Shown here piece by piece: positions 5,843-62,292 of a DNA stretch of 64,000 nt (positions within the stretch are counted from its first letter, which is position 1; each line of letters begins with the position of its first letter). This stretch comes from Streptococcus sp. LPB0220. GTDB lineage: Bacteria > Bacillota > Bacilli > Lactobacillales > Streptococcaceae. The stretch lies in contig NZ_CP044230.1 in assembly GCF_008727815.1 (NCBI RefSeq), forward strand, positions 1,782,001-1,846,000. Reading direction: 5' to 3'. The notes under the pieces are model-generated. The model saw only the letters and a program-made list of their open reading frames with translations. It did not search any database and was not told the origin of the DNA. Position numbers and translations under genes: made by a program.

Positions 5843-5848
5843 AATGAA

Positions 5849-6030
5849 GAGGCTGGGACAAAAGTCCTAGCCTCTCAATTATTTTTGGATTGTCGAGCAA
5901 GACGCAGTGGTTGAGTGGGCTCTACTACGCTGATTTCATCAGCTTTTACAGCCCTACTCAACTGTGCGGAGGTGGGACGACGAAATCGAGTTCTAACGAA
6001 TTACCGATTTCTGTCCCACTCTCTTTTTTT
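5849..6030 (+). repeat. Structured repeat family F, copy 1 (three stem-loops, ends in terminator)
   Basis: This copy is nearly identical to 33045-33218 and 57204-57381. Stem 1 pairs GAGGCTGGGAC with GTCCTAGCCTC around AAAA. Stem 2 pairs CGCAGTGGTTGAGTGGGCT with AGCCCTACTCAACTGTGCG around an inner GCTGA/TCAGC hairpin. Stem 3 pairs GTGGGAC-GAAATCG with CGATTTC-GTCCCAC. Here stem 3 is followed by CTCTTTTTTT, so this copy should terminate the pabB-hydrolase transcript. No ORF. I do not recognise it as BOX, RUP or SPRITE. Confidence 0.85.
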
Positions 6031-11743: not shown

Positions 11744-11942
11744 TCACTTGATTTGATAGTTCTATTATACCCTTCTCTTTCCAAAAAATCCTACAAGATC
11801 TTATGGAAAACTAAACCTATTCTAAGGTAACTCATACACTTTGGAACATAAAAAAGACTGGATTGCTCCGATCTTTCAATAGTTCATTTTCTCACATTCT
11901 GTTTTAAGAATAGCTAAGGTTGACGTTAAATGACCACGCCTC

Positions 11943-14511: not shown

Positions 14512-14537
14512 AAATTGATGGCAAAGTATTTTTAAAA

Positions 14538-14673
14538 AAACTTTCCTTAGGTGAGTACGGACGTCAGCGAACTTCTTCGAAGTTCCATGACTTAGTTTTG
14601 AGCCTAAGGTCTCAAAACTACCGAGTGCTTGAAATGATAATGTTTCAAGCACTTTTCTCACGGCGGAAAGTTT
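14538..14673 (+). repeat. Structured repeat family S, copy A
   Basis: One of five copies. The termini pair (AAACTTTCC..GTGAG with CTCAC..GGAAAGTTT) and enclose three hairpins: GAACTTC/GAAGTTC, AGTTTTGAG/CTCAAAACT with loop CCTAAGGT, and AGTGCTTGAAA/TTTCAAGCACT. Here it lies antisense to copA, between the copA stop and its terminator. The stretch 14674-14807 resembles the outer flanks of copies C, D and E. Confidence 0.85.
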
Positions 14674-14807
14674 TCTGTATTTTCTTGATTCAATCTAAAA
14701 ATTGGAACTTATTTTACTTTATTCGTTGAATCACTTAACTTATATTACTTAAAAAAGTTTGACTACGTTCTAATCGCTACTGCATACTGTATCACTTCTT
14801 ATTTTCA

Positions 14808-17908: not shown

Positions 17909-17938
17909 AAAAAAATTTCCTCTTGGAAATAGAGGAAG
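17909..17938 (-). terminator. Terminator beyond family S copy B
   Basis: TTCCTCT / AGAGGAA stem followed on the minus strand by ATTTTTTTG. It is the first terminator after the SGNH hydrolase stop, so family S copy B lies inside that transcript. Confidence 0.7.
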
Positions 17939-18030
17939 GTAGACAATCTGTTTTTACAAAAAATCATCTAAAGAAATCTAAAAAGAAATAGAATTGATTT
18001 CAATTATAAGAACCATTCAAATATTTCCTG

Positions 18031-18166
18031 AAACTTTCCGCCGTGAGAAAAGTGCTAGAAACACTATTGTTTCTAGCACTCGGGAGTTTTGGAACCTTAG
18101 GTCCAAAACTAAGTCATGGAACTTCAAAGAAGTTCTCTGACGTCCGTACTCACCTAAGGAAAGTTT
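18031..18166 (-). repeat. Structured repeat family S, copy B
   Basis: Same architecture as copy A, in sense orientation 79 bp after the SGNH hydrolase stop. Hairpin 2 is AGTTTTGGA/TCCAAAACT (compare GAG/CTC in copy A) and hairpin 3 is AGTGCTAGAAAC/GTTTCTAGCACT, paired changes that keep both stems. Confidence 0.85.
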
Positions 18167-18245
18167 TTAAGAAGACTTTATCTTCAATCTGAAATTTTTC
18201 TTTGAAGATTTGTCTAGTTGGGCTTTTTCGCTCCCTATTTTGTCT

Positions 18246-32962: not shown

Positions 32963-33044
32963 TTAAATAACCTTCCTTTTCACCTCCATTGTACACCTTT
33001 TTCTCTCTATAAAAATGGAAAATTCCTAAAACTAGGAACAGAAT

Positions 33045-33218
33045 GAGGCTGGGACAAAAGTCCTAGCCTCTCAATTGTTTCTAAATTGTCGAGCAAGACG
33101 CAGTGGTTGAGTGGGTCTACTACGCTGATTTCATCAGCTTTTACAGCCCTACTCAACTGTGCGGAGGTGGGACGACGAAATCGAATTCTAACGAATTACC
33201 GATTTCTGTCCCACTCTC
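33045..33218 (+). repeat. Structured repeat family F, copy 2
   Basis: Same three-stem arrangement as copy 1, missing one C in the stem-2 strand (GGGTCTACT for GGGCTCTACT). There is no T-run after stem 3, so it does not end in a terminator on the plus strand. It fills the interval between the 109-residue gene and the pyrD terminator. Confidence 0.85.
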
Positions 33219-33221
33219 ATA

Positions 33222-33259
33222 AAAAACTCCCCCAAGTTTCCACTTGAGGAAGTTCTTTT
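33222..33259 (-). terminator. Terminator of pyrD
   Basis: AACTTCCTCAAGT pairs with ACTTGGGGGAGTT (two G-U-type positions) and a TTTTTT run follows on the minus strand. Confidence 0.7.
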
Positions 33260-39045: not shown

Positions 39046-39080
39046 GGTCCTGCTTAAAATAGGGGACTTCCCCTATTTTT

Positions 39081-39215
39081 CGCTCTGTCCTTTTACCTGA
39101 GAGTTTGAGTAGATGCATCCTCTACCTTGCCCCTTCGGTGCCATTTCTGGTCTCTCCAGAGTTCCGTCCATTCACAGTCACTCACGCTCCTGCAAACTTC
39201 ATTCGGTCGTATGTA
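39081..39215 (-). ncRNA. Glycine riboswitch (gcvT-type aptamer)
   Basis: On the minus strand the conserved core is complete: GGACGGAACTCTGGAGAGA, GGCACCGAAGGGGCAAG, then ACTCTCAGGTAAAAGGACAG and AGC. The P1-type pairing CTCTG/CAGAG closes it. One full aptamer is visible (39081-39170), with a partial 5' extension to about 39215. It is followed by an intrinsic terminator and the AGCS remnant, matching known glycine riboswitch control of AGCS symporters in streptococci. Confidence 0.9.
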
Positions 39216-40843: not shown

Positions 40844-40873
40844 AAAAACCCTAGCTGATAAACAGCTAGGATT
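40844..40873 (-). terminator. Terminator beyond family S copy C
   Basis: CCTAGCTG / CAGCTAGG stem, with GGGTTTTTAAAA on the minus strand. First terminator after mutS2 and copy C. A similar CTAGCTGATGAACAACTAGG occurs at 41128-41148 on the other side of the element. Confidence 0.65.
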
Positions 40874-40967
40874 TAGAATGTAGATAAAATTTTTACTTAA
40901 AACAACTTAACTGATATAGAATAATTAAAATTGATACATACTAATAGGCTCATTCAGACAAATACTG

Positions 40968-41103
40968 AAACTTTCCGCCGTGAGAAAAGTGCCTGAAACA
41001 TAATTGTTTCATGCACTCGGGAGTTTTGAAACCTTAGGTTCAAAACTAAGTCATGGAACTTCTTCGAAGTTCGCTGACGTCCGTACTCACCTAAGGAAAG
41101 TTT
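40968..41103 (-). repeat. Structured repeat family S, copy C
   Basis: Sense orientation, 55 bp after the mutS2 stop. Hairpin 2 is AGTTTTGAA/TTCAAAACT. Hairpin 3 has one mismatch (AGTGCATGAAAC/GTTTCAGGCACT). Its outer flank to about 40870 matches the flank of copy D for about 100 bp. Confidence 0.85.
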
Positions 41104-41158
41104 CTAAGATAACTTTTTCTTCAATCTGGATCTAGCTGATGAACAACTAGGGCTTAAC

Positions 41159-56916: not shown

Positions 56917-56967
56917 AAGAACTAAGATAAGGTTTTCGTTTTCAGATTGAAGACAAAGTCATTTTTG

Positions 56968-57103
56968 AAACTTTCCTTAGGTGAGTACGGACGTCAGAGA
57001 ACTTCGAAGAAGTTCCATGACTTAGTTTTGAACCTAAAGTTTCAAAACTCCCGAGTGCTAGAAACAATCCTATTTCTAGCACTTTTCTCACGGCGGAAAG
57101 TTT
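56968..57103 (+). repeat. Structured repeat family S, copy D
   Basis: Sense orientation after mvaA. Loop 2 is CCTAAAGT instead of CCTAAGGT; hairpin 3 is AGTGCTAGAAA/TTTCTAGCACT. The right flank (57104-57180) matches the flank of copy C in reverse, and then family F copy 3 follows. Confidence 0.85.
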
Positions 57104-57203
57104 CAGTGTATGTTTGAATGAGCCTATTGGTATGTATCAGTTTTAATTATTCTGCATCACTTAGCTTGTTTTATGTAAAAAACAGTTTGTTTACATTCTA
57201 AAA

Positions 57204-57381
57204 GAGGCTGGGACAAAAGTCCTAGCCTCTCAATTATTTTTGGATTGTCGAGCAAGACGCAGTGGTTGAGTGGGCTCTACTACGCTGATTTCATCAGCTT
57301 TTACAGCCCTACTCAACTGTGCGGAGGTGGGACGACGAAATCGAATTCTAACGAATTACCGATTTCTGTCCCACTCTCTTT
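57204..57381 (+). repeat. Structured repeat family F, copy 3
   Basis: Almost identical to copy 1. Stem 3 is followed by CTCTTTTGTG, so it can serve as the terminator of the mvaS-mvaA transcript. Between it and the convergent PrsW gene there is only 19 bp. Confidence 0.85.
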
Positions 57382-57400
57382 TGTGTTTGAAAAATTTTTC

Positions 57401-60010: not shown

Positions 60011-60046
60011 AAAAAAGAAAGGATTGACTTTTTAAAGCCAATCCTA
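60011..60046 (-). terminator. Terminator beyond family S copy E
   Basis: AGGATTGG / CCAATCCT-type stem with a TTTCTTTTTTT run on the minus strand; first terminator after fni and copy E. Confidence 0.75.
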
Positions 60047-60142
60047 AACGTATAGAAACTAATTTTTAAGTAAAATAGGTTAAGTGATTCTTCAAAGAAC
60101 TATAAAAGAGTTCTAATTTTCAAAATGAATCATAATATACGA

Positions 60143-60278
60143 AAACTTTCCGCTGTGAGAAAAGTGCCTGAAACGTTTTTATTTCAGGCACTCGGGAGTT
60201 TTGAAACCTTAGGTTCAAAACTAAGTCATAGAACTTCGTAGAAGTTCGCTGACGTCCGTACTCACCTAAGGAAAGTTT
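60143..60278 (-). repeat. Structured repeat family S, copy E
   Basis: Sense orientation, 16 bp after the fni stop. Hairpin 3 is AGTGCCTGAAA/TTTCAGGCACT: a C-G pair replaces the T-A pair of copies A, B and D. The closing-stem side reads CACAGCGG instead of CACGGCGG. Confidence 0.85.
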
Positions 60279-60294
60279 CTAAAATGATTTTTCT

Positions 60295-62292
<1,998 letters not shown>

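Follow-up and report, generated by a model that had tools for sequence, protein, structure and literature searches.

A cloverleaf-forming streptococcal repeat with features of a mobile element that inserts in terminator hairpins and duplicates them

A 64,000-nt window of the Streptococcus sp. LPB0220 genome (contig NZ_CP044230.1, positions 1,782,001 to 1,846,000) contains five copies of a 136-nt sequence that can fold into a cloverleaf and whose stems differ between copies in a paired manner. Such a locus raises the question of whether the pairing reflects selection on RNA structure or a MITE-like repeat whose mobility depends on the fold, the two readings offered by the original prediction. 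We confirmed the five copies in the window sequence at 14538–14673 (+), 18031–18166 (−), 40968–41103 (−), 56968–57103 (+) and 60143–60278 (−), and 5/5 share an identical 27-base stretch in the 5′ part, where none is expected by chance. The outer stem AAACTTTCC/GGAAAGTTT, the inner stem GTGAG/CTCAC and the three hairpins are all present, as are the paired changes GAG/CTC, GGA/TCC and GAA/TTC that had been named. Below, strand A is the strand on which the cloverleaf was originally read and strand B the opposite one.

The 136-nt cloverleaf proved to be the core of a longer element, measuring 253–260 bp in the window copies and extending beyond the boundaries first proposed. A common left stretch of ~25 nt and a right stretch of ~95 nt flank the core, and their outer ends are formed by inverted repeats with imperfect matching, AGATTGAAGACAAAG and TTTGTCTACATTCT. 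The copy in focus, with its core at 40968–41103 on the minus strand (strand A), spans 253 bp from inverted end to inverted end (40875–41127); its left end, AGATTGAAGAAAAAG at 41113–41127, and its right end, TTTATCTACATTCT at 40875–40888, each contain one mismatch. Two copies of a terminator hairpin, CCTAGTTGTTCATCAGCTAG at 41132–41151 and CCTAGCTGTTTATCAGCTAG at 40851–40870, lie on either side on the same strand. The other whole elements occupy 14512–14771 (+), 17934–18190 (−), 56944–57199 (+) and 60045–60301 (−), the last with a weak right end (5 mismatches). Both inverted ends were found at up to 4 mismatches in 14/29 copies of the own genome versus 0.15% of 2,000 random places; under the same threshold they were present in 4/44 other streptococcal copies and in 0/33 copies from two other genera.

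In some elements, additional modules are found inside hairpins 2 and 3 or between them. L031 is one of these, and at its site a strain without the module exists (L146). Within the own genome, a module of ~113 nt (AAGATACAAAGGGCG...GTAGCCCGTGTTCAATT) between these hairpins occurs in L031, L033, L034 and, in shortened form, L035, and may be a repeat of its own. Another copy in this genome, L038, has an internal deletion, and its left end is repeated in inverted orientation at the right, resulting in a single long palindrome. The window also contains a second repeat of ~181 nt at 5847–6027, 33042–33222 and 57202–57382, with two copies 99% alike and one at 69%; it weakly matches Rfam family RF02894 (S35; 32.6–34.2 bits, cut-off 69), and its third copy directly adjoins the cloverleaf element at 56944–57199. 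A glycine riboswitch (RF00504, 61.9 bits) is located at 39075–39169.

The distribution of the element was assessed by the covariance-model search of streptococci that had been suggested as a check. Using a model built from 29 own copies and scoring up to 22 places per genome, we detected the element in 126/147 sampled Streptococcus genomes. The genome of the window itself, a single contig of 2.13 Mb, contains ~40 element sites as counted from 52 match rows. With a broader model, an order-wide draw gave matches in 45/295 genomes and 3/74 genera, including two non-Streptococcus genomes with at least 53 and at least 7 matches, a few of the 53 being antisense or partial. In a class-wide draw under strict filters, all 26 matching genomes out of 398 belonged to Streptococcus. 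Among the matches listed for the exact 27-base core were S. parasanguinis, S. australis, S. rubneri, S. xiaochunlingii and other Streptococcus records. Phage and plasmid records yielded no blastn match to the element, and the exact core was absent from viral contigs; one match to the end pattern in the viral contigs contained no core according to the model and looks unrelated. In G268, a genome from another genus of the order, we observed tandem and miniature cloverleaf copies (L246, L254, L256, L258, L262 and L271), some of them apparently reduced to the outer stems and the second hairpin.

The flanks of the element revealed where it lands. For the own genome, we compared left and right flanks in 29 of 30 copies (L029 was left out), counting orthologous sites once. 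In 15/29 copies and in 5/25 other streptococcal sites, the two flanks were alike beyond every cross-locus control, with about one such site expected in each set; the corresponding count in the two other genera was 0/31. The repeated flank is mostly an intrinsic terminator, recognizable as a hairpin with a T tract directly downstream of a gene, with L007 and L055 among the 20 positive sites having short, marginal duplications without a clear hairpin. A clear duplication is absent in 14/29 own copies and in 4/17 copies of a further genome, G020.

G020 contains 19 exact copies of the end motif, and 17 of these loci were read. One end is exact by selection, and the other has at most 2 mismatches in 16/17 copies. 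At 13/17 loci the same hairpin of 19–28 bp stands on both sides, 0–1 nt from the element ends; the other four lack a duplication, and the far end of L382, one of these four, could be located only poorly. In the 12 correctly measured loci, the duplication is centered on the hairpin axis with an offset of at most 1 nt (L398, for which the alignment gives 25/26, was left out), and in 10/13 loci the fold comes within 1 nt of either end of the duplication. Duplication length follows the span between the outermost G-C pairs (Spearman 0.78, p = 0.002, n = 13), a measure chosen after the full palindrome span had shown no correlation (Spearman −0.04), which we attribute to A and T tracts that lengthen the palindrome past the duplication. 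In copies with readable flanks, the hairpin is thus duplicated with one copy per side, symmetrically about its axis and with a length that follows hairpin size. A duplication length set by the target's fold would be consistent with cleavage at both hairpin feet, which we take as the likely mode of cutting.

Comparison between strains supplied empty sites. L088 carries a single terminator at a site where, in L004, two terminators enclose an element. L130 likewise has a single terminator at the site of the element at 17934–18190, at which L013 shows the right hairpin together with a left copy that has decayed. Conversely, the window has one terminator and no element at 11840–11942, a site that is filled in L157, L087 and L144; L157 has two terminators, but its upstream sequence differs from that of the window, and in L087 and L144 the right part is gone and a single hairpin remains. 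Strains differ in the orientation of the element at two window sites (L128 and, at 60045–60301, L113), for which recombination between the palindromic flanks could be the cause.

The MITE-like alternative of the original prediction is supported by the inverted ends and the target duplications, by the empty sites and by the broad distribution of the element. We therefore favor, with a probability of roughly two in three, a non-autonomous, MITE-like mobile element that has the cloverleaf as its core, is bounded by imperfect inverted ends and inserts in intrinsic-terminator hairpins. The copies lacking a clear duplication, and the absence of duplications and of such ends in the two other genera, weigh against this reading. 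A mobilizing enzyme was sought in several ways, and none was found. The 14 most recurrent gene clusters among 233 open frames from 70 loci of other genomes included no transposase, all being host-type by reading. A PF09299 profile gave 0/144 matches, with its controls equally silent. The end pattern AGAATGTAGACAAAC occurs in 11/118 genomes; 11 of 13 such loci scored with the model contain the cloverleaf element, some weakly, and the remaining two, L363 and L373 of G057, look like degenerate relatives.

Long target duplications are also a feature of IS1202-family insertion sequences, for part of which duplications of 16–28 bp have been published (PMC10132070), and the cloverleaf element might accordingly be a MITE of such a sequence. 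IS1202-like sequences above the NF033594 cut-off were present in 4/197 Streptococcus genomes, and three of these (G026, G098 and G131) have 19, at least 22 and 11 cloverleaf-element matches. Genome G781 contains IS1202-like copies of ~1.56 kb at L333 and L353 with duplications of roughly 20–27 bp. These two duplications are not hairpins by reading, however, and the IS1202-like ends in G781 read TGTTATCATTCGAAAGT, differing from those of the cloverleaf element. None of seven scanned IS1202-like copies holds the cloverleaf-element end motif with fewer than 3 mismatches, and the window's genome has no NF033594 match. For the insertion sequences found, this origin is largely refuted by the inverted ends, which are not shared, and we regard it as highly improbable overall.

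With mobility as the favored reading, the paired changes in the stems required an explanation. Folding of one copy gave the described cloverleaf at −51.2 kcal/mol (z = −6.1). Across 48 distinct sequences, 95.5% of stem cells are paired versus 76.9% after shuffling, and 392 cells show double changes versus 87. Significant covariation, which the original prediction had expected, was detected in 28/48 structure pairs and in none outside the structure, using an R-scape-like script with a tree-based null rather than R-scape itself. The same script applied to the streptococcal rows alone returned 19 significant pairs, again none outside the structure, and a sequence-only alignment of 45 streptococcal rows returned ten, all in stems by reading of positions. 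A pseudoknot between CCTTAGG near the 5′ end and CCTAAGG in loop 2 had also been proposed. Both motifs are present, but one of the five window copies reads CCTAAAG, and in the alignment of 48 distinct sequences the pseudoknot has no double change at all and is unpaired in 19 cells at one of its pairs, on which basis it was rejected.

A functional RNA is one alternative, and a match in Rfam that had not been anticipated speaks for it. All five window copies match RF02616 (SSRC8_2) on strand B with E values of 9.4e-14 to 3.2e-10; the scores of 47.8–59.0 bits lie below the curated cut-off of 72. The focus copy matches over the full model length at 40861–41142 on the plus strand (56.9 bits), as does a relative, L060, which at 74.1 bits exceeds the cut-off. 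The comparison with Rfam thus uncovered a catalogued family, although on the strand opposite to the one described and, for the window copies, below threshold. In S. pyogenes, SSRC8 was predicted and gave a signal on a Northern blot, and its ends were determined by circular RACE (PMC3675131); by that account, some copies are transcribed. It is catalogued as an sRNA gene, and the accessible portion of its source paper lists partial homologs in other streptococci without mention of repeats or mobility and describes neither a multi-copy mobile element nor terminator duplication (PMC3675131). Under this alternative, the element would be an sRNA or mRNA element expressed from strand B and preserved because its RNA structure is under selection, and its spread would be incidental.

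Genomic context bears on this alternative in both directions. Several genomes contain copies between rmlC and rmlB and between grpE and dnaK, and at these places strand B has the sense of the mRNA; the genes beside them recur in 10 and 9 loci, respectively (names by reading of translations), making domestication possible for some copies. Against a functional RNA, strand A is the sense strand of both neighbors in 12/30 own and 21/36 other-genus copies, and the element is inverted in other strains at two window sites. Copies are rare between divergent genes (1/30 own, 2/44 other streptococcal and 3/36 other-genus copies by our own gene calling).

RNA helices tolerate G-U but not A-C pairs, and a clear excess of G-U over A-C is expected of a structured functional RNA. 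No such excess was found in well-paired positions. In 76 non-redundant rows (86 minus those >97% identical), the 45 pairs with at least 75% Watson–Crick cells contain 3,177 Watson–Crick, 44 G-U and 46 A-C combinations among 3,328 cells, in an alignment that was fitted to the model. Split by group, these are 15 G-U and 29 A-C in streptococci and 29 G-U and 17 A-C in the other genera. The 75% filter leaves out one partly G-U position, and all 48 pairs unfiltered give 3,255 Watson–Crick, 75 G-U and 49 A-C cells, a mild RNA-like excess that speaks for the RNA alternative. Two positions with poor pairing at the foot of the last stem account for 30 of the additional G-U cells and thus for most of this excess. 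The RNA controls behaved differently, although these sets are small: 25 tRNAs of the own genome gave 41 G-U and 0 A-C, with aragorn brackets admitting no A-C by construction, and 14 glycine riboswitches gave 31 G-U and 1 A-C over a 13-pair RNAalifold structure, which favors G-U. A fixed-geometry tRNA control (36 G-U, 7 A-C) was partly out of register and was left out. Pairing in the element is thus close to strand-symmetric. Because G-U is no commoner than A-C in well-paired positions, the covariation does not point to RNA, and selection on RNA structure as originally stated is not supported.

Rates of change provided a further view. In the 28 closest of 33 ortholog comparisons, which come from 13 own copies, stems changed at 0.85% per base at shared sites, roughly fourfold more slowly than unpaired sites (3.8%), with the nearby flank at 3.4%; the misregistered comparisons L007–L121 and L014 and the diverged site L016 were left out. 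The stems are therefore kept, by selection or by repair, and their slower change could also mean a host function. Weighing these points, we consider a functional RNA an unlikely origin of the pairing; DNA-level folding or template switching fits the covariation better.

Template switching within hairpins, a published cause of compensatory changes (PMC8794818), would rewrite both arms together and could generate the covariation by mutation, with no selection on structure. Several observations fit: double-change cells far outnumber one-sided ones (392 versus 17, summed from the covariation table), mismatches are nearly strand-symmetric, and the diverged ortholog pair L016 shows 5–6 double changes in two stems. 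Terminators behave similarly, with a terminator copy in L004 that has also diverged with paired arms and, in L374 of G020, a loop inverted between the two hairpin copies (TTTC versus GAAA). On the other hand, the outer stems covary even though they enclose >100 nt, and the 28 close ortholog comparisons contain only single changes and no double change. A purely mutational origin is a serious possibility, but one toward which we do not lean.

The element invites comparison with the known small repeats of streptococci. BOX, RUP and SPRITE, as characterized in PMC3049150, are likewise small, structured and multi-copy, and BOX is modular. They are described there as almost absent outside S. pneumoniae and S. 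mitis except for BOX relatives in S. suis (PMC3049150), in contrast to the 126/147 genomes with the cloverleaf element. SPRITE itself resembles a terminator, whereas the cloverleaf element duplicates that of its host. A further candidate, described in 2011, is a BOX-type repeat of S. suis that has boxE and boxF at its limits. As far as the available description goes (PMC3049150), it is similar in size (115 + 133 nt) and has inner modules, which likewise occur inside some cloverleaf-element copies. The S. suis family could be a relative; that the two are one and the same, a comparison made by description alone, seems distinctly doubtful to us.

How might a mobile element of this kind copy a terminator? 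Known IS1202-like sequences share the long target duplications but differ in their ends and, for the two copies seen, in duplicating non-hairpin targets. Another parallel is CRISPR spacer integration, in which Cas1–Cas2 joins DNA at both ends of an often palindromic repeat and the whole repeat is duplicated. Here, by contrast, the insert is a repeated element of ~250–400 bp and the target a terminator hairpin. By analogy, an enzyme acting in trans would nick the palindrome, either extruded or recognized as such, at both of its feet and on opposite strands. The element ends would then be joined at these feet, and gap filling would copy the hairpin in a fashion comparable to the copying of the CRISPR repeat by Cas1–Cas2. 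Stem pairing of the cloverleaf would be kept at the DNA level, as a folded single strand, as a cruciform or by template-switch repair, rather than for an RNA function. The terminator remaining on either side would limit harm to the host.

A duplication length that follows the hairpin, unlike the product of a fixed-stagger transposase, points to structure-specific integration. We tentatively propose, as a possibility that we rate somewhat below even odds, a hitherto undescribed recombinase that recognizes DNA hairpins by structure and inserts the element at both feet, with the cloverleaf as its folded single-stranded DNA substrate. If so, any terminator could be a target and be copied whole, with the duplication length set by the target fold and not by the enzyme.

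In the titles and abstract beginnings covered, from which most subscription journals are missing, we recognized no description of the cloverleaf element or of hairpin duplication apart from the SSRC8 paper (PMC3675131), and the insertion mode appears to be new. Duplication of a hairpin on insertion is an unusual landing-site choice for mobile DNA, and a terminator on each side would make for a neat, low-harm insertion. For RNA biology, the element counsels caution: where G-U pairs are few, even very strong covariation does not on its own speak for RNA function. For streptococci, a catalogued sRNA family is part of a genus-wide mobile element, and SSRC8 homologs should therefore not be taken as conserved regulators without care.
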